From assembly GCF_000426365.1 (NCBI RefSeq), contig NZ_KE384525.1:44072-108071 (forward strand): 64,000 nt of DNA, given 5' to 3'. Shown one piece after another: positions 45,812-63,935 of the stretch; the stretch's first letter is position 1, and each line of letters begins with the position of its first letter. Under the pieces are notes generated by a model, which was given only the letters and a program-made list of their open reading frames with translations, was not told the DNA's origin and did no database searches. Made by a program: the position numbers and the translations under genes. The DNA is from Arenimonas composti TR7-09 = DSM 18010. Lineage in GTDB: Bacteria > Pseudomonadota > Gammaproteobacteria > Xanthomonadales > Xanthomonadaceae.

Positions 45812-46501
45812 ATGCAAGCCCACATCGTCCAGAGTTACGACACCGAACTCTCCCGCCTCGACGCCGAGATCCGCCGGATGGGCGAACTGGCCGTCGCCCA
45901 GCTCGACGCCGCCATGGACGCACTGCAGCGACAGGATCGCGCCGCCGCCGAGCGCGTGGTCGCCGGCGACGACGCCGTCGATGCGCTCGAGCACGCGATC
46001 GGCCACGACGTGCTGCAGCTCCTGGCGCTGCGCCAGCCGCTCGCGCGCGACCTGCGCGAGGTTTACGCGACGCTGCGCATCTCCGCCGACATCGAACGCA
46101 TCGGCGACCTCGCGGCCAATGTCGCCAAGCGCGGCATCGTGCTCGCCGACGGCCCGCCGGTACCGCTCGCGCACGGCGTCACCGCCCTCGCGAACCTCGC
46201 CGGCGAGCTCGCCCGCGACGCGCTCGATTCCTGGAACGCCCGCGACGGCGAACGCGCGATCGCCGTCCGCGGCCGCGACGTCGCCCTCGACGCCGCCTAC
46301 ACCGCGCTGTTCCGCGAGCTGCTGACCTACATGGCCGAGGATCCGCGCCGGATCACCGCCTGTACTCACCTGCTGTTCGTGGCCAAGAACCTCGAACGGA
46401 TCGGCGACCATGCCACCAACATCGCCGAGGCGACCTGGTTCGTCGTGAACGGCGAATTCCCCGGCGAGCGGATGAAGGGCGACGCGATCCTCGCCGGCTA
46501 A
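45812..46501 (+). CDS. phoU: Phosphate signalling protein PhoU
   Basis: Negative regulator that links PstSCAB to the PhoR/PhoB two-component system, 229 residues made of two three-helix bundles. Metal-binding motifs are ISADIERIGDLAANVAKR and VAKNLERIGDHATNIAEA (the E/DxxxD pattern). The ATG at 45812 lies next to a REP hairpin; the longer in-frame region upstream overlaps pstB. phoB and phoR are not in the window. Confidence 0.96.
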   Translation: MQAHIVQSYDTELSRLDAEIRRMGELAVAQLDAAMDALQRQDRAAAERVVAGDDAVDALEHAIGHDVLQLLALRQPLARDLREVYATLRISADIERIGDLAANVAKRGIVLADGPPVPLAHGVTALANLAGELARDALDSWNARDGERAIAVRGRDVALDAAYTALFRELLTYMAEDPRRITACTHLLFVAKNLERIGDHATNIAEATWFVVNGEFPGERMKGDAILAG

Positions 46502-46836
46502 TCGACCGATTCCAGGGCGATGGCACGCATCATCAGCTCCTCCTGCGAGAATCGGCGCTCGAGATCGCGGCGGTAGGCGCCCCACCAGGCGCGGTCGAGC
46601 TCCGCGCAGACGACTTCGACCAGCACGACGTCGTCGTGCTGGACCAGGCCGACGCCATCTTCCCAGGCACCGAGGGCCGGCGAGCGCAGGAAGGCGGTGC
46701 TGCCGCCGAACTTTTCCGTGAGCTCCGCGCGCACCGCCTCGAACTGCACCTTGGTGCAGGGGCGGCCGGCGTTGTCGCGCAGCGGCAGGAACAGCTGCAC
46801 CAGGTACTGGTCGGCGACGGGGATGGTCTGCGGCAT
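46498..46836 (-). CDS. Conserved hypothetical protein
   Basis: A 112-residue cytoplasmic protein from the ATG at 46836 (MPQTIPVADQYLVQLFLPLR). It shows an alternating beta/alpha pattern with AELTEKFGGSTAF, GVGLVQHDDVVLVEVVCAEL and WWGAYRRDLERRF, the look of a small ferredoxin-like (dimeric alpha-beta barrel) fold; I did not recognise a named family. Its stop overlaps the convergent phoU stop by four bases. No operon partner is seen. Confidence 0.65.
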   Translation of the reverse strand: MPQTIPVADQYLVQLFLPLRDNAGRPCTKVQFEAVRAELTEKFGGSTAFLRSPALGAWEDGVGLVQHDDVVLVEVVCAELDRAWWGAYRRDLERRFSQEELMMRAIALESVD

Positions 46837-47003
46837 CTGTGCTCTCCGGGGTCGGCGGGAGCTTGCGCGGCGACGCGTGGAGGCACCGTCGACCGACGGA
46901 CATGGCGTCGTGAAGCCGCGCCGCACGATCATCGATCGTCGACACGCCGGTCCCGACGATTGTGGTTACCGCGGCGCCTGCCGCGCATGCCTCGGAGACC
47001 ACG

Positions 47004-47471
47004 ATGGGACTGTTCCGCAACATCCTCGACAAGCTCGGGCTCGGCAAGGACCGCGACGCCTACGGCACCCGCCCCTACGAGCAGGCGCCCGGCAAGCCGG
47101 CGACCCCGGGCCCGCTGAGCGGCCAGGCGCCCGGCAGCGGTGGCAGCGGCGGTACCGGCAGCCCGGCTCCGGCGACCCCGACCGCCGGAACCACCCCGGC
47201 GGCGATGCCCCGCGTCGACGTGATGGCGAAGCTCGAAGCGATGTCGGCGAGCGCCGGCCAGAAGCTCAACTGGAAGACCTCGATCGTCGACCTGCTGAAG
47301 CTGCTGGACCTGGATCCGAGTCTCGCCGCGCGCCGGGAGCTCGCCGATGAACTCGGCGCCCCGTCGCACCTGCCGGACGGCTCCGCGGAGATGAACCAGT
47401 GGCTGCACCGCGAGGTGCTGCGGCGGATCGCCGAGAACGGCGGCGACCTGCCGAAGGAACTGCTGGACTGA
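47004..47471 (+). CDS. DUF3597 domain-containing protein
   Basis: A 155-residue protein from the ATG at 47004 (MGLFRNILDKLGLG) with CGGAGACC upstream. A Pro/Gly/Ser-rich linker (about residues 30-70) precedes the conserved domain: LEAMSASAGQKLNWKTSIVD, LLKLLDLDPSLAARRELADE, MNQWLHREVLRRIAENGGD. The domain is LysM-associated in some bacteria and has no assigned role. It lies upstream of the glycine riboswitch with its own transcript. Confidence 0.88.
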   Translation: MGLFRNILDKLGLGKDRDAYGTRPYEQAPGKPATPGPLSGQAPGSGGSGGTGSPAPATPTAGTTPAAMPRVDVMAKLEAMSASAGQKLNWKTSIVDLLKLLDLDPSLAARRELADELGAPSHLPDGSAEMNQWLHREVLRRIAENGGDLPKELLD

Positions 47472-47494
47472 GGCGGCCGCCGCCCGGCTTCGGG

Positions 47495-47500
47495 TAGAAT
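47495..47500 (+). promoter_or_regulatory. Likely -10 box of the gcvP riboswitch transcript
   Basis: TAGAAT 14 bases before the first riboswitch stem. The -35 region is GC-rich with no clear hexamer. Confidence 0.5.
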
Positions 47501-47513
47501 CGCCGGGCTCGAT

Positions 47514-47684
47514 GCGCGGTGCGGGAGAGGGCGGCCACGGCCGCCGCCGAAGGCGTAACGCCCGTAATCGCTCAGGACCCAGGAACCGCACCGCGCGAGC
47601 GACTCTGGAGAGACCGGTTCACCGGCGCCGAAGGGGCAAGGACGGCAGGACGCCGCCCCAAACTCTCAGGCAAAAGGACAGAGG
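47514..47684 (+). promoter_or_regulatory. Tandem glycine riboswitch
   Basis: Two glycine aptamers in series. Aptamer 1 spans 47514-47596: P1 GCGCGGTGCGG pairs with CCGCACCGCGC, and the core shows GGGAGAG, CGCCGAAGGCG and AATCGCTCAGGACC. Aptamer 2 spans about 47601-47684: CTCTGGAGAGACC, GCGCCGAAGGGG, AAACTCTCAGGCAAAAGGAC and closing AGAG. Downstream, CCGCGC (47692-47697) pairs with GCGCGG (47704-47709) before CCCCCTTT, a possible expression platform that glycine would disrupt. The switch should turn gcvP on when glycine is high. Confidence 0.95.
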
Positions 47685-47735
47685 GGCATTCCCGCGCCGC
47701 CGTGCGCGGCCCCCTTTCCAATGCCCGGACCCGCC

Positions 47736-50621
<2,886 letters not shown>

Positions 50622-50643
50622 GGCGGCGGGGGCGGGCTCCGGG

Positions 50644-51060
50644 GTGAAGGCGTTCCTGCTGGTCCTGGTTCGGCCGGACGTGGACGTCGCCGACGAGGCG
50701 GCGCTGCGCGCCGCGGTCGCCGCGGCGATGGCCCCGCATGCGGAGGCGAGCGACGACCCCGGCGAAGACGCCGGCGACCACGGTCGTGCGCGGCGGTGGG
50801 ACTATTACCTGCTGTGCACGCGGGACATCCTTCCGGAATGGCCGGATCCCGCGTTCACCGCCCGCGCCCCGGATGGTCCGCGCGTGGCCCGCGCCGGCGA
50901 CGTTCGCGCATGGCCGCATGCCTTGCTGACACCCGACGGGCGCTGGCACGAGAGCCGCGCGACGTACCAGGCCACGGATCCGCACTGGCCGGCGACCGCC
51001 GCCGGGCTGGTCGCGCCTTACGCGGACCATCACGCGCTCCTCGTGCTCTACCACGCGTGA
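50644..51060 (+). CDS. Hypothetical protein
   Basis: Not recognised. A 138-residue product from a GTG at 50644 (KAFLLVLVRPDVDV), 22 bases after gcvP, with no strong Shine-Dalgarno site. It appears to be cytoplasmic and soluble: no signal or membrane helix. Trp- and Asp-rich segments (RRWDYYLLCTRDILPEW, WHESRATYQATDPHWPATAA) are the main marks. Codon use fits the neighbours. It lies between gcvP and the metallophore cassette, with 88 bases to the next start; any link to either is unknown. Confidence 0.55.
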   Translation: MKAFLLVLVRPDVDVADEAALRAAVAAAMAPHAEASDDPGEDAGDHGRARRWDYYLLCTRDILPEWPDPAFTARAPDGPRVARAGDVRAWPHALLTPDGRWHESRATYQATDPHWPATAAGLVAPYADHHALLVLYHA

Positions 51061-51148
51061 GCCGGCGGGTGACATCCGCCGCCGCCCGGTCCATGCTCGC
51101 CCCACCCGCGCGGCGCGCGGGCACCCCACCGCCATCCGGAGGCGTTCC

Positions 51149-51595
51149 ATGTCCAGCAAGACCCTGACCCCCGTCGTGGTCGCCGGCGCCGTCGCGCTCG
51201 GCAGCCTCGTCCTCGCCGGTTCCGCCTTCGCGATGACGCCGCTCGCGCAGGGCTATCTGCTCGCCGCGGGCAGTGGCGACGACAAGGCGGAGGAGGAAGG
51301 CAAGTGCGGCGAAGGCCGCTGCGGCGAAGGCGGTTGCGGTGCGGCCGCGGCCACGGAAGGCGCCGAGGACAAGGCCGCCGAAGGCAGGTGCGGCGAAGGC
51401 GGTTGCGGCGAGGGCCGCTGCGGCGCCGGCCACGACCACGACGACGACCACGACGACGACCACGACGACGACCACGACGCCGCCCACGACGCCGCCCACG
51501 ACCATGACGCGTCGCACGACGACGACGCGTCCCGCGACCGCGGCAGCGACGAGGCCGAAGACAAGGCGGCGACGGAAGGCACCTGCAACGGCTGA
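51149..51595 (+). CDS. hvfA: HvfA-like metallophore RiPP precursor with EGxCG repeats and His/Asp tail
   Basis: A 148-residue exported precursor. Residues 1-28 are a signal peptide, followed by [12 protein letters not shown], typical of HvfA. The core has six EGxCG pentapeptides: [15 protein letters not shown] (50-64) and [15 protein letters not shown] (78-92). A degenerate seventh (EGTCNG) is at the C-terminus; each group is preceded by D-K-A. Residues 95-123 hold nine His in HDDD/HDAA periods. In studied HvfA the EGKCG cysteines are changed by the MNIO enzyme into oxazolone-thioamide groups that bind copper. GGAGG precedes the ATG. The His/Asp tail suggests an additional, unmodified metal site. 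Confidence 0.9.
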
Positions 51596-51602
51596 CCGCG
51601 TC

Positions 51603-52439
51603 GTGGCATCGCCCGTGACCGCGCGCGCCGCCGGCCTCGGCTTGCGGCGCGCGCTGATGGCGCAACTGCGCGACGCGCCGGACGGCGGCGTCGACTTCCT
51701 CGAGTGCGCGCCCGAGAACTGGATCGGCGTCGGTGGCCGCTGGCGCGAGCAGCTGCGCGAACTGGCCGCGCGCGTGCCGCTGACCTGCCACGGGCTCTCG
51801 CTCTCGCTGGGTGGCGCCGATCCGCTCGACCGTACGCATCTGCGCCGCGTCCGCGCCTTCCTCGACGAATACGACGTCGCGCTCTACAGCGAGCACCTCT
51901 CGTACAGCAGCGACGGTGGGCAGCTCTACGACCTGCTGCCGCTGCCGTTCACCGAGGAAGCGGTGGCGCATGTGGCCGCGCGCATCGGCGCCGTGCAGGA
52001 CGCGCTCGGGCGGCGGATCGCGGTCGAGAACGTCAGCTACTACGCGGCGCCGTTCCAGGCGATGGACGAGCGCGACTTCATCGGCGCGGTCCTCGCCGAG
52101 GCCGATTGCGACCTGCTGCTCGACGTCAACAACGTCGTCGTGAACGCCACCAACCACGGCTACGACGCCGATGCCTTCCTGCGCGCGCTGCCGGGACCGC
52201 GCATCGTCGGCCTGCATGTCGCGGGACACCACGACGAGGCCCCGGACCTGAAGATCGACACGCACGGCGCGCCGGTCGCGGATCCCGTCTACGCGCTGCT
52301 CGAACGCGCGTGCGCGCTGTTCGGGCCGCGGCCGACGGTGGTGGAGCGCGACTTCGACTACCCGCCGCTCGCCGACCTGCTCGCGGAGGTCGCCCGCGTC
52401 CGCGCGATCCTCCGCACCGCACCCGGCGGCCATGCCTGA
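51603..52439 (+). CDS. hvfB: MNIO (DUF692) multinuclear iron oxidase, HvfB-like
   Basis: The tailoring enzyme expected to oxidise the cysteines of the precursor; 278 residues from the GTG at 51603, seven bases after the hvfA stop (a GTG at 51614 is an alternative). TIM-barrel with candidate iron ligands His63 ([10 protein letters not shown]), His98 (YSEHLSYSS), Glu142 (VENVSYY), Asp174 ([16 protein letters not shown]), His205/His209 (LHVAGHH), Asp219/His221 (IDTHG) and Glu248 (VVERD). DUF692 proteins include MbnB of methanobactin synthesis. The stop overlaps the hvfC ATG by eight bases. Confidence 0.93.
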
Positions 52440-53211
52440 GCACGCCGCGCTGCGCGAACAGTTGCGCGCCTTCGCCGCGCATCTGCGCGATCCGGAGGCG
52501 GCGCCGGTTCCGGACGGCGTGGATGTGCGCGGGGCCGGCGTCTACCGCCGCCTGGTCTTCGACAATCTCGGCGGGTTGCTCGGCGGTGTTTTCCCGGTCG
52601 CGCGCCGCCTGCTCGGCAAGGCGGCATGGCAGGCGCTGGTCGCGGACTTCCTGCGCGAGTGGCGTTGCCGCACGCCGCTGTTCCCCGGGATCGGCGGCGA
52701 GTTCCTGCAGTACCTCGCGCAGCGCGGCGACGCGGCGGGAGATCCGCCGTGGCTGCAGGAGCTCGCGCACTACGAGTGGATCGAACTCGCGCTCGACCTG
52801 AGCGACGCCGATCCCGGCGCCATCGCGCACGACCCCGACGACGACCTGCTCGCCGGCCGCCCGCTGCTGTCGCCGCTCTGTCGCGTGCTCGCCTACGCCT
52901 GGCCCGTGCACCGCCTGCGCCCGGACGCCGTCCCGGCGACGCCGCCGCCCCGGCCCACCTTCCTCCTCGTGCGCCGCGACGAGACCCAGCGCGTGCGTTT
53001 CGACGAGATCAGCGCACTCACCTTCCGCCTGCTGCAGTCGATCGCCGACGACACCGGCGCCACCGGGCACGCGCTGCTCCTCGCCCTCGCCGCCGAAGCC
53101 CGGGCCGCCGACACGGATGCATTCGTCGCCGAGGGCGCGGTGATGCTGGCGCGGCTGCGCGAGGCGCGCGTCGTGGGGTGCAGGAGTCAGGAGGTAGGAG
53201 GTAGGAGGTAG
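52432..53211 (+). CDS. hvfC: DUF2063 partner protein, HvfC-like
   Basis: A 259-residue protein whose N-terminal DUF2063 domain ([45 protein letters not shown]) is the standard partner of DUF692 enzymes; it probably recognises the precursor leader. The C-terminal domain looks like a winged-helix remnant ([20 protein letters not shown]). The last ten or so residues ([10 protein letters not shown]) and the stop are encoded by a heptad hairpin, so the natural C-terminus may have been cut. No DoxX-type fourth gene follows. The start overlaps hvfB. Confidence 0.9.
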
Positions 53212-53285
53212 CAATGCGGTGCGCGGCGGACGTGCCGGTCACGACGCACTGCTTCACTACCTCTTACCTCCTACCTCCTACCTCC
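53190..53285. repeat. Heptad hairpin element C (GGAGGTA type)
   Basis: Three exact GGAGGTA copies at 53190-53210 (preceded by GGAGTCA) face TACCTCT and three exact TACCTCC copies at 53258-53285. The 47-base loop has further pairing (GTGCG/CGCAC). The left arm encodes the end and TAG stop of hvfC. The right arm ends 21 bases before the RNase T start. Confidence 0.92.
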
Positions 53286-53306
53286 TGCTCCAAGTATCCT
53301 GCCGGC

Positions 53307-53948
53307 ATGGACGCCCCCCACCCCCGCATGGCCGAGCGCTTCCGCGGATTCCTGCCGGTGGTCGTGGACGTGGAGACCGGCGGTTTCGACTGCAACCGGC
53401 ACGCGCTGCTGGAGATCGCCGCGCAGCCGATCGAGCTGGACGACGACGGCTATTACCGCCCCGGCGAACTGGTCTCGACCCATGTCGAGCCGTTCCCCGG
53501 CGCCGAAATCGATCCGCGCTCGCTCGAAGTCACCGGCATCCGCCTCGACAGCGCGCTGCGCGGCGCGGTCGACGAACGCACGGCGCTCGACCGGGTATTC
53601 GTGCCGGTGCGGGCGGCCGCGAAGCGGCACGGCTGCCAGCGGGCGATCCTGGTCGGCCACAACGCCAGCTTCGACCTGGGCTTCCTCAATGCCGCGGTCA
53701 CGCGGGTCGGGCACAAGCGCAACCCCTTCCACCCGTTCAGCACCTTCGACACGGTGACCCTGGCCGGCATGGCCTACGGGCAGACCGTGCTGAGCCGGGC
53801 CGTGCAGGCCGCCGGCATTTCCTGGGACGGCGGCCAGGCCCATTCGGCGGTCTACGACACCGAACGTACCGCCCTGCTGTTCTGCACGGTGCTCAACCGC
53901 TGGCGCCAGTGCGTCCGCGCCGGCCCCGCCATCGCGTCAAGGGAATGA
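53307..53948 (+). CDS. rnt: Ribonuclease T
   Basis: DEDDh 3'-5' exoribonuclease that trims tRNA and other small RNA 3' ends; 213 residues from the ATG at 53307 ([20 protein letters not shown]). Catalytic motifs: VDVETGGFD (Exo I), [16 protein letters not shown] (Exo II) and [15 protein letters not shown] (Exo III). An in-frame start at 53214 would translate the heptad hairpin and is rejected. Basic patches typical of RNase T are present ([15 protein letters not shown]). Confidence 0.95.
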
Positions 53949-53970
53949 CCCCCACCCCCGGAGCCTCCCC

Positions 53971-54927
53971 ATGATCCACGACAGCATCCTCGGCACCGTC
54001 GGCGACACCCCGATCGTGCGCATCAACCGGCTGGCGCCGGAGGGCGTGCGGATGTACGCCAAGCTCGAGTTCTTCAACCCGATGTCGTCGGTCAAGGACC
54101 GCCTGGCGCTGGCGATCATCCTCGACGCCGAGCGCAGCGGCGCGCTGCAGCCCGGGCAGATGGTGGTCGAGGCGACCAGCGGCAACACCGGCATCGCCCT
54201 GGCGATGGTGTGCGCGGCGCGCGGCTATCCCTTCGTCGCGTTCATGACCGAAACCTTCTCGGTCGAACGCCGCAAGCTGATGCGCGCCCTCGGCGCCAGG
54301 GTGATCCTGACCCCGGCCGCCGAGCGCGGCAGCGGCATGGTGCGCGCGGCTGCCGCCTTCGCCGAGAAGCACGGCGCCTTCCTCGCCCGCCAGTTCGAGA
54401 ACGAGGCGAACCCGGCCTGGCATCGCAACACCACCGGCCCGGAAATCCTGCGCGACTTCGCCGGGAAGCGGCTGGACTGGTTCGTGACCGGCTACGGCAC
54501 CGGCGGCACGCTGACCGGCGCCGGGCAGATGCTCAAGCTCGCCCGGCCGGACCTGAAGATCGCCGCCTGCGAGCCGGAAGTGGCCTCGCTGCTGGCCGGC
54601 AAGGAATGGAGCCCGCACAAGATCCAGGGCTGGACGCCGGACTTCATCCCCGCGGTGCTCGACCGCAAGGTCTACGACCTGATCACGCCGGTATCGGACG
54701 TGCTGGCGCGCGACACCGCGCGGGCGCTGGCGCAGCAGGAAGGCATCTTCTGCGGAATTTCCGGCGGCGCGACCTTCGCGGCCGCGCTCGAGGTCGCGCG
54801 CACGCTCGACCCGGGCAGCGTGGTGCTGGCGATGATCCCGGACACCGGGGAGCGCTACCTCAGCACGTTCCTGTTCGAGGGGATCGCCGAGGGCAGCGAC
54901 GACGAGTGGCTCGCTACCCTCGGCTGA
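53971..54927 (+). CDS. cysK: Cysteine synthase (O-acetylserine sulfhydrylase)
   Basis: PLP enzyme making cysteine from O-acetylserine and sulfide, 318 residues. PLP lysine in NPMSSVKDRLA, substrate loop EATSGNTGIALA, phosphate loop GYGTGGTLTGAG, and GISGGATFAAALEVA. The CysK/CysM distinction is not certain from the sequence; the length and VKDR context favour CysK. It starts 22 bases after rnt and is probably transcribed with it. It ends ten bases from the convergent DUF1036 gene. Confidence 0.93.
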   Translation: MIHDSILGTVGDTPIVRINRLAPEGVRMYAKLEFFNPMSSVKDRLALAIILDAERSGALQPGQMVVEATSGNTGIALAMVCAARGYPFVAFMTETFSVERRKLMRALGARVILTPAAERGSGMVRAAAAFAEKHGAFLARQFENEANPAWHRNTTGPEILRDFAGKRLDWFVTGYGTGGTLTGAGQMLKLARPDLKIAACEPEVASLLAGKEWSPHKIQGWTPDFIPAVLDRKVYDLITPVSDVLARDTARALAQQEGIFCGISGGATFAAALEVARTLDPGSVVLAMIPDTGERYLSTFLFEGIAEGSDDEWLATLG

Positions 54928-54936
54928 CCGCGGGCC

Positions 54937-55416
54937 TCAGGGATCGAGGTTCCAGGTGAAGGTGCCCGCCTCGGTGGCGGTCAGCACGACGAAGTCGCGG
55001 GTGTCCTGGCTGGCCGTGCAGTAGCCGTCGCGGGCCGTATAGAAGGTGTATGGCCCCGGATACTCGACGCAGAGGGTGTGGTTGCCGCCCCAGAAGCGGT
55101 CGGTGCCCTCGACGTCGGCATAGCCGTAGAAGGTTGCGTTGTCGGTCTGGCCGAGGATCTTGCACTCGCCGGCGCGCACGGTGAACCAGCCGCGATTGAT
55201 GAATTCGGTATCGCCCGGCTCGATGAACGACAGCGCGACCGAGGCGCCCTGGCGGCTGCGGTTGCAGACCTGGATCTTCAGCAGGCCCTCGCTGGAGCGT
55301 GCCGCCGGTGCGCTGCTGCCCTTGAACCGCTTGTTCTGGGCGTCGGCGGATTCCGGCGCGATGGCGAGGCCCGCGAGCAGCACCGAGGCGGCAGCGAGGA
55401 TGGCGGTTCTGGACAT
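54937..55416 (-). CDS. Exported DUF1036 domain-containing protein
   Basis: A 159-residue secreted protein from the ATG at 55416, with GGGGA nine bases upstream and a signal peptide ending SADA-Q. The DUF1036 domain follows: LLKIQVCNRSRQGASVALSF, INRGWFTVRAGECKIL and a cluster of Cys and aromatic residues (YTFYTARDGYCTASQDTRDF). Family members are small beta-proteins of unknown role in the periplasm or outside. It is monocistronic. Confidence 0.86.
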   Translation of the reverse strand: MSRTAILAAASVLLAGLAIAPESADAQNKRFKGSSAPAARSSEGLLKIQVCNRSRQGASVALSFIEPGDTEFINRGWFTVRAGECKILGQTDNATFYGYADVEGTDRFWGGNHTLCVEYPGPYTFYTARDGYCTASQDTRDFVVLTATEAGTFTWNLDP

Positions 55417-55534
55417 GGCGATTCCCCTGGTTGAAAGACCGGCGCTTCCGGTCGTAGTGGCAATTTGCGCCAAGCCCGCCGGGCATTTCAATCGGGCCGT
55501 GGCCGCCCCCGCCGATACGAAGGCCGACGCGCGA

Positions 55535-55843
55535 TCAGGACAGGCCGTTCCCGGGCGGGGAGCGCCGTGTGCGGAATCCGCTGATGCGCCGGCGCAGGCC
55601 CCGCACCAGCCCGTACAGACTGATCGCGATCCATGCAAGCTGCATGATCGTCGTCGAGATCACGTCGCTCAGCGCCGGCCCGGGGCCGAAGATCGACACC
55701 AGGATGAAGACCGCGCCGAACAGGTTCGCGCACTGGTAGCCGAGCGATTCGCCGCCGAGGCGGCCGGCCTGCAGCAGGAAGAAGGCGCCGAGCACCAGGC
55801 CGACGCCCGCCAGGCCGACCAGGTCGAACCACTGCAGGCTCAC
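55535..55843 (-). CDS. Small membrane protein, CBU_0592-like
   Basis: A 102-residue inner-membrane protein with three hydrophobic helices: LVGLAGVGLVLGAFFLLQAG, NLFGAVFILVSIFGPG and MQLAWIAISLYGLVRGL. The middle part LGYQCANLFGAVFILVS is characteristic of the CBU_0592 domain. The GTG at 55843 overlaps the rlmB stop (GTGA), so it is coupled to rlmB. The C-terminus is basic (RRRISGFRTRRS). The function is unknown. Confidence 0.82.
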   Translation of the reverse strand: MSLQWFDLVGLAGVGLVLGAFFLLQAGRLGGESLGYQCANLFGAVFILVSIFGPGPALSDVISTTIMQLAWIAISLYGLVRGLRRRISGFRTRRSPPGNGLS

Positions 55844-56592
55844 GCCGCGTTTCCGCGCTGGCGCACCGCCTCGAACAGGGCGATGCCGGTGGCGACCGAC
55901 ACGTTCAGGCTTTCCATCTCGCCGGGCATCGGGATCGCGACGAGGCCGTCGCAGGTTTCGCGGGTCAGCCGGCGCATGCCCTCGCCTTCGCCGCCCAGTA
56001 CCAGGGCGACGTTGCCGCGCAGGTCGGTGGCGTGGATCGTCGCCGCCGCGTCGCCGGCGAGGCCGTAGATCCAGACGCCGAGCTTCTGCAGCTCGCGCAG
56101 GCTGCGCGCGAGGTTGGTGACGCTCACCACCGGCACGCGGTCGGCGGCGCCGGCCGAGGTCTTGCGCACGGTGGCGTTGACCGGCGCGGCCTTGTCCTTC
56201 GGGATCAGCACCGCCGTGACCCCGGCGGCGGCGGCGGTGCGCAGGCAGGCGCCGAGGTTGTGCGGGTCCTGCACGCCGTCGAGCACCAGCACCAGGGCGC
56301 GACCTTCCGCGGCCTCGATCAGGCCCGGCAGCTCCTTCTCGTCGACGCCTTTCGCCGCCTCGTAGCGGGCGATCGCGCCCTGATGGCGCAGGCCGCCGGC
56401 GATGCCCTCGAGCGCCTGCAGCGCGACCCGGCGCACCGGGACGTCGCGACGGCGCGCGGTCTCCTCGATCTCGACGATGCGCGGGTTCTTCGCGCCGGCC
56501 TCCAGCAGCACCTCGCGCACGTGTTCGACATCGTGCTCGAGCGCCGACGCGACGGCGTTGATGCCGGCGATCCACTGGTCTTTCCTGCTCAT
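55840..56592 (-). CDS. rlmB: 23S rRNA (guanosine-2'-O-)-methyltransferase RlmB
   Basis: SPOUT-family methyltransferase for Gm2251 of 23S rRNA, 250 residues. An N-terminal L30-like substrate-binding domain is followed by the knotted domain with LDGVQDPHNLGACLRTAAAA, VLGGEGEGMRRLT and MPGEMESLNVSVATGIALFE, which bind SAM. It is downstream of rnr, an order conserved with E. coli (rnr-rlmB). A REP lies in the 42-bp gap between them. Confidence 0.96.
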   Translation of the reverse strand: MSRKDQWIAGINAVASALEHDVEHVREVLLEAGAKNPRIVEIEETARRRDVPVRRVALQALEGIAGGLRHQGAIARYEAAKGVDEKELPGLIEAAEGRALVLVLDGVQDPHNLGACLRTAAAAGVTAVLIPKDKAAPVNATVRKTSAGAADRVPVVSVTNLARSLRELQKLGVWIYGLAGDAAATIHATDLRGNVALVLGGEGEGMRRLTRETCDGLVAIPMPGEMESLNVSVATGIALFEAVRQRGNAA

Positions 56593-63840: not shown

Positions 63841-63935
63841 CAGTTCGTAGTTCGTACGAGGCAGGAGGTAGTCGTCGCGGCCTTCGCGGCGTCCCGCCGG
63901 CCAACTACCTCGTACCTCGTACGAACTACGAACTC
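63841..63935. repeat. Heptad hairpin element E (GTTCGTA/GGAGGTA type)
   Basis: Left arm 63841-63872: GTTCGTA GTTCGTA, then CGAGGCA GGAGGTA. Right arm 63903-63935 on the minus strand: GTTCGTA GTTCGTA, then CGAGGTA CGAGGTA. About 29 of 31 positions pair. The right arm supplies the TAG stop of the DUF2065 gene. Confidence 0.88.

Follow-up and report, generated by a model that had tools for sequence, protein, structure and literature searches.

The locus described here raises the question of whether a single exported peptide may combine the cysteine motifs of a copper-binding product with a second metal-binding module made of histidine and aspartate. It lies in a stretch of 64,000 nucleotides from Arenimonas composti TR7-09 = DSM 18010 (contig NZ_KE384525.1, positions 44,072 to 108,071), and this whole stretch is referred to as the window. 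A sequence-only reading of the DNA had placed an HvfABC-like metallophore cassette at positions 51149-53211, consisting of a precursor gene followed by a DUF692 (MNIO) gene and a DUF2063 gene, and family searches bear this out. The precursor, HvfB and HvfC each score above the curated NCBIfam cut-off (HvfA, HvfB and HvfC families), and the two downstream proteins match PF05114 and PF09836. These matches assign the region to the HvfABC-type cassettes (Buf_EGKCG / oxazolin / captophorin). The coordinates of the cassette, its neighbours and the features discussed below are collected in Table 1.

Table 1. Features of the hvfABC locus and of a related stretch elsewhere in the genome (window positions unless another sequence is named).
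Feature	Position	Strand	Evidence or remark
138-aa ORF	50644..51060	+	site of ECF sigma gene in most genus relatives
GGAGG, ribosome-binding-site-like, 5' of hvfA	51138..51142	+	sequence reading
hvfA-like precursor gene, 148 aa	51149..51595	+	above the cut-off of NF050137, HvfA family (26.6 against 19.5 bits; 3 stretches)
Segment resembling a signal peptide (residues 1-28, the last four SAFA)	51149..51232	+	sequence reading; N-termini alike in genus relatives
First EGxCG triplet	51296..51340	+	sequence reading
Second EGxCG triplet	51380..51424	+	sequence reading
His/Asp insert, 33 aa (17 Asp, 9 His, 6 Ala, 1 Ser)	51431..51529	+	12-bp tandem repeat beneath; unique among 277 precursor ORFs
Degenerate terminal motif EGTCN (EGTCNG)	51575..51589	+	sequence reading
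hvfB, MNIO (DUF692) maturase, GTG start	51603..52439	+	NF003818 398 bits, cut-off 360; PF05114 338 bits
hvfC, DUF2063 plus NGO1945_C/RRE partner	52432..53211	+	NF050145 271 bits, cut-off 142; PF09836 and PF22106 above cut-off
Hairpin of AGGAGGT/ACCTCCT repeats, hvfC/rnt junction, spanning the hvfC stop codon	53180..53288	.	fold z = -10.8
rnt (RNase T), conserved right neighbour	53307..53948	+	TIGR01298 323 bits; synteny
ZnuD-like TonB-dependent receptor, open frame, part of gene	L338 2-1600 = G000:C4:203901-205499		best NCBIfam match ZnuD, NF038289, 313.5 bits, under cut-off 950; best solved match ZnuD 4rdr

The three genes had also been described as an overlapping operon. An overlap of 8 nt between hvfB and hvfC was found, but it is the only one in the cassette, and hvfA and hvfB lie 7 nt apart provided that the GTG start of hvfB is correct. 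For rnt, the ATG at 53307 is the likelier start as read from the sequence. Prediction of sigma-70-type promoters and intrinsic terminators returned none, and a search of RNA families gave no known family at gathering score. The precursor has no Pfam match at an E-value of 1 or better, including DUF2282 (BufA1 bufferin) and EF-hand, and it scores far under the cut-off of the Haemophilus-type HvfA equivalog NF050188 (13.3 bits, cut-off 95). The scores for methanobactin MbnB (TIGR04159; 55.2 bits, cut-off 325) and ZrgA (NF047873; 10.3 bits, cut-off 185) are likewise under the cut-offs. Among solved structures the best match to HvfB is 3bww, and the sole match to HvfC at an E-value of 0.001 is 3dee. 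The 138-aa ORF upstream of the cassette has no NCBIfam or Pfam match at an E-value of 1 or better.

It had been assumed that HvfB and HvfC turn the motif cysteines into oxazolone-thioamide groups. This part of the sequence-only reading has been superseded, as the oxazolin groups are reassigned to 5-thiooxazoles in PMC13419390 and PMC13097082, which describe the conversion of the motif cysteines by HvfB and HvfC with a loss of 4 Da each. Captophorin-type products are described as binding copper, and fontiphorin as precipitating upon copper loading (PMC13097082). The window's cassette resembles the oxazolin HvfABC system of non-typeable Haemophilus influenzae in having an EGKCG-type repeat precursor with a putative Sec signal, an MNIO HvfB, an RRE partner HvfC and six putatively modifiable motif cysteines, but it differs in its mixed motif types, its His/Asp insert and the absence of DoxX beside hvfC. 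The captophorins (fontiphorin FonABC and gonophorin) share with it an MNIO enzyme and DUF2063 partner as well as EGxCG repeats, and a 5-thiooxazole would be expected in the window's product; in contrast to the window's precursor, they have no His-rich segment as they are presented in the main text of PMC13097082. A related EGKCG operon of Microbulbifer is reported to show no detectable expression with or without added copper (PMC12538549), so copper induction of the window's operon should not be assumed.

The six EGxCG motifs, in two triplets with one degenerate copy behind them, were read just as had been noted before. The residue at position 3 of the six motifs is Lys in one (EGKCG), Arg in three and Gly in two. 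Lys stands at this position in 1642 of the 1826 EGxCG motifs present in 277 precursor ORFs, which makes the window's motifs atypical. FonBC accepts Arg, Ala and Thr at position 3 (PMC13097082), which makes EGRCG a plausible substrate, and by analogy EGRCG should be processed by the window's enzymes. Gly at position 3 is absent from the motif variants described for FonBC in section 12 of the same paper; on the same analogy, EGGCG would probably be processed. The Gly after the Cys can be replaced by Ala only in FonBC substrates (PMC13097082), and EGTCN is probably not processed. A natural precursor with Arg or Gly before most of its motif cysteines would be a useful probe of HvfB specificity.

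The enzymes that would act on these motifs keep most of their near-invariant positions. Near-invariant columns were defined as those with one residue in at least 98% of the relatives (96 for HvfB, 95 for HvfC). HvfB keeps 104 of its 106 near-invariant columns (98.1%), and since L247V and N252D are the sole changes, every near-invariant His, Asp, Glu and Cys column is kept. HvfC keeps 33 of 35 (94.3%), the changes being R34G and A150C. When relatives were left out one at a time, the median share was 100% and the lowest values were 96.3-97.2% for HvfB and 81.6-94.6% for HvfC.

The histidine-rich part of the precursor had been described as a separate tail with nine His in HDDD/HDAA periods. The count of nine His is confirmed, but the stretch is not a separate tail. 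It is an internal insert of 33 residues between the last EGxCG block and the degenerate terminal repeat, and the frame 3' of it is open, so that the precursor ends in a sequence resembling the C-terminal repeat of relatives. From GHD to the C-terminus the net charge is -20 (K, R, D and E counted). The binomial probability of at least nine His in 30 residues is 3e-8 if His is assumed to make up 2.5% of residues. The insert is known from a single assembly and its repeat length may be imprecise, with the frame continuing correctly through the repeat.

The search of HvfA homologues for such tails that had been proposed was carried out on 277 distinct EGxCG ORFs, which came from 305 of 316 loci, the other 11 loci giving none; the 277 include two fragments shorter than 60 aa and some second ORFs from one locus. 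The loci were drawn from a genus sample (27 genomes searched with HvfB, 21 matched), a family sample (297 genomes searched with NF050137, 199 matched), a class sample (369 genomes, 97 matched), a phylum sample (398 genomes searched with the HvfB family, 135 matched at an E-value of 1e-60) and a named-locus sample (80 loci, the best 80 of 183 relatives). Not every match contributed a locus, the choice falling mainly on those with the highest scores, and the sample sets overlap. The window's ORF stands alone in exceeding 5 His per 30 residues: it reaches 9, and the other 276 ORFs reach at most 5 (5 in three ORFs, 4 in six). For His and Asp together the maximum per 30 residues is 24 in the window and at most 11 in the other 276. 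The insert is thus rare, with a sampling that is biased toward close relatives and strong EGKCG matches. A strict DNA pattern (two tandem motifs with a His/acid run no more than 30 nt further on) gave 0 matches in 84,980 species genomes, which is weak evidence of absence, given how strict the pattern is and that the window's own genome is perhaps outside that set. Of the three other ORFs that reach 5 His, one comes from a Pseudoxanthomonas suwonensis MAG (L192) and has EGNCG/EGRCG motifs, an EF-hand pair and extra His clusters (HHADGGHH); it is possibly an intermediate type.

It had also been considered that the stretch could be a rare assembly artefact absent in close relatives. The absence holds for the 18 other genus loci read (L003-L020, with L007 a fragment; L021-L023 have no EGxCG ORF), but a frame that runs on without a stop as far as a recognisable C-terminal repeat does not indicate an artefact.

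The earlier remark that a described precursor joining both kinds of site was not known holds only in part. PMC12452194 describes fusions of EGKCG precursors with two EF-hand_5 domains, so that a two-module EGKCG precursor is already known; these Buf_EGKCG / EF-hand_5 fusions resemble the window's precursor in that a second putative metal-binding module is joined to the EGKCG motifs, but the module is an EF-hand (Ca) module in the fusions and consists of His/Asp repeats in the window. A His-rich EGxCG precursor is not described among the literature matches listed (supplementary tables and most subscription papers lay outside the scope), and the words histidine and His-rich are absent from the main texts of PMC12452194, PMC13097082 and PMC12538549. 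The His/Asp module is therefore new as a module seen once, and it may already be tabulated somewhere.

We think it fairly likely that this HvfABC-type cassette makes a Cu(I)-binding 5-thiooxazole peptide in which the insert serves as a disordered, acidic segment that binds divalent ions weakly and helps to keep the peptide in solution. We infer that the precursor would be made with a Sec-like signal peptide and presented by HvfC to HvfB, which would oxidise the six EGxCG cysteines (four electrons and -4 Da each) to 5-thiooxazoles. The modified peptide would be exported and would bind Cu(I) in the periplasm. The position of the insert is comparable to that of the EF-hand pair found in many relatives. 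The insert would be disordered and strongly acidic and may bind divalent ions weakly, with Zn(II) the first candidate and Cu(II), Ni(II) and Ca(II) the alternatives, while its acidity would keep the copper-loaded peptide soluble. A bolder form of this proposal, which we consider doubtful, is that an EF-hand-type module was replaced by the His/Asp module and that a soft Cu(I) thiooxazole array and an unmodified borderline divalent array cooperate in one exported peptide. In such a case the insert might, for example, take up Cu(II) or Zn(II), and the copper, once reduced, would be handed to the thiooxazoles.

Zn(II) is the first guess for the insert because a similar run occurs in a ZnuD-like receptor encoded in the same genome, which is an analogy and not a test. 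The 18-base unit of the insert has 15 near-matches in the genome, 6 inside the insert and 9 elsewhere, compared with 73 for a reversed control pattern. Two adjacent near-matches lie at G000:C4:204624-204653, on the same contig but outside the window, and encode the His/Asp run HSHDPDDDDDHDAGHDEHDHEAH in the open frame of the TonB-dependent receptor. A protein search with the insert and the C-terminus, made to see whether the insert had been copied from another gene, found only the precursor itself and missed this run; a shared origin of the two stretches is conceivable. In ZrgA, a disordered loop rich in His, Asp and Glu is described as adding mostly low-affinity zinc sites, and as not being essential for function (PMC9820375). 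Both ZrgA and the ZnuD-like receptor have a His/Asp-rich stretch as in the window, but the proteins are unrelated to the precursor.

The DNA beneath the insert bears on its origin. A unit of 12 bp is repeated 5.9 times with a 96% match over 71 bp (51432-51502), and the regularity of the insert is largely explained by recent slippage in this low-complexity, near-perfect repeat. With such a repeat in one species only, there is no sign of selection on the insert. It is quite possible, though we hold this more tentatively, that the insert is a recent GAC/CAC repeat expansion from a spacer such as AGH, tolerated and with no metal role of its own. Its absence from the other 276 ORFs is in keeping with this, and the AGHE or AGH spacers of some genus relatives could have been the seed. 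However, the insert leaves the reading frame intact as far as the recognisable C-terminal repeat, the unit is not especially common in the genome, as the counts given above indicate, and outside the precursor no region of the whole window has a TRF score above 78. The confidences that we attach to these explanations do not sum to one, as neutral slippage concerns the insert only and is compatible with the reading of the locus as a working copper-peptide cassette.

The weakly binding acidic segment that we favour occupies a position with a history in the relatives. EF-hand-like loop motifs occur in 96 of the 277 ORFs, and two or more in 85; these are motif counts only, and at least one of the single-loop rows (L257) looks like chance. 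In an HvfB tree of 39 rows, the window's HvfB forms a long branch (0.47) on an open fork, flagged by the tree program as unsure in its placement, and does not belong to a clade of 17 rows, supported at 100/98, that holds 16 other genus loci and a named duplicate of one. The first two branches of this clade, L016 and L018, have an EF-hand pair between EGKCG blocks, and the other 14 genus loci in it lack EF loops (L007 being a fragment). Five further genus loci (L019-L023) stand elsewhere in the tree on long branches. Among the non-genus Lysobacteraceae rows of the tree, 11 of 12 have EF loops, sited between EGxCG blocks. From this distribution it is plausible that the ancestral precursor had an EF module at the position of the insert.

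One could accordingly ask whether an ancestral EF-hand pair decayed in place and was rebuilt as a His/Asp module, the second ion changing from Ca(II) to a transition metal. The shared position, the EF loops of the Lysobacteraceae rows and of the two earliest genus branches, and the placement of the window's HvfB outside the other genus members would agree with such a swap. A profile built from 88 EF modules gives the insert and C-terminus 15.6 bits, a value reached by 9 of 1000 shuffles. However, true modules score 70.3-107.3 bits, the whole precursor as a query gives only 12.3 bits, and no EF-hand family is found at an E-value of 1 or better. Shuffling also destroys the register of the repeat, so that the weak signal may be one of composition, and the tree placement carries the uncertainty of a long branch on an open fork. 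The profile signal is suggestive only, no EF-hand remains in the window's precursor, and we regard the swap as unlikely.

The surroundings of the cassette have changed as well. The order in the window is gcvP, the 138-aa ORF, hvfABC and rnt. Relatives of an ECF sigma protein (query L150) are encoded upstream in 14 of the 16 other genus loci L003-L018, and relatives of a DoxX protein (query L132) downstream of hvfC in 15 of these 16; the identity of both queries was confirmed with Pfam. The ECF sigma gene is missing from L007, where the contig breaks off, and from L003, which is not truncated in this way. DoxX, which is frequent but not universal beside hvfABC, has no match at positions 46001-56000 of the window, and the one DoxX match of the genome is on another contig. 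The gcvP gene lies on the upstream side of the ECF gene in L010 and L016, while rnt is found downstream in L003, L007, L009 and L013; most of the remaining genus loci end too early to show these flanks. The cassette is thus at the ancestral gcvP-rnt site but has lost its ECF sigma and DoxX neighbours. That it arrived by horizontal transfer was considered and is unlikely, since the gcvP-rnt site is as in the genus relatives, though HvfB branches outside the other genus members.

The missing ECF sigma and DoxX genes, the long HvfB branch and the two lost HvfC columns may reflect relaxed constraint. The nearest HvfB within the genus (72%) is that of G001 (locus L003), which is without the ECF sigma and DoxX genes; its precursor nevertheless carries 12 EGxCG motifs and lacks an insert, so that the loss of these neighbours alone does not bring about an insert. 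That the cassette is decaying outright, its operon left uninduced by the loss of ECF sigma and DoxX and its precursor drifting (loss of Lys from the motifs, gain of the insert, a broken last motif and a changed HvfC end), is quite improbable, because the lost neighbours, the long HvfB branch and an HvfC C-terminus altered by a repeat element are set against three open frames, the near-invariant columns kept in both enzymes and the precursor of G001.

A functional cassette with an acidic insert, as we prefer to read the locus, suggests that EGxCG precursors are modular, with Cys arrays joined to EF-hand pairs in many species and to a His/Asp array here. A single genus that holds precursors of three kinds, one bearing an EF-hand pair, one a His/Asp insert and one lacking both, would permit a direct test of the role of the second module.

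The repeat element that touches HvfC is the hairpin at the hvfC/rnt junction. It encodes the last residues of HvfC, and this C-terminus is unlike that of the 10 relatives compared. A BLAST search gave 25 pieces of the element in the genome, of which 2 are its own place and the others are spread across several contigs. From this sequence and distribution, a dispersed REP/MITE-like element seems to have rewritten the C-terminus of HvfC. A weaker inverted pair of AGGAGGTAG-like sites, with 2 mismatches each, lies near the end of the window at 63856-63920 and is perhaps another copy of this element.
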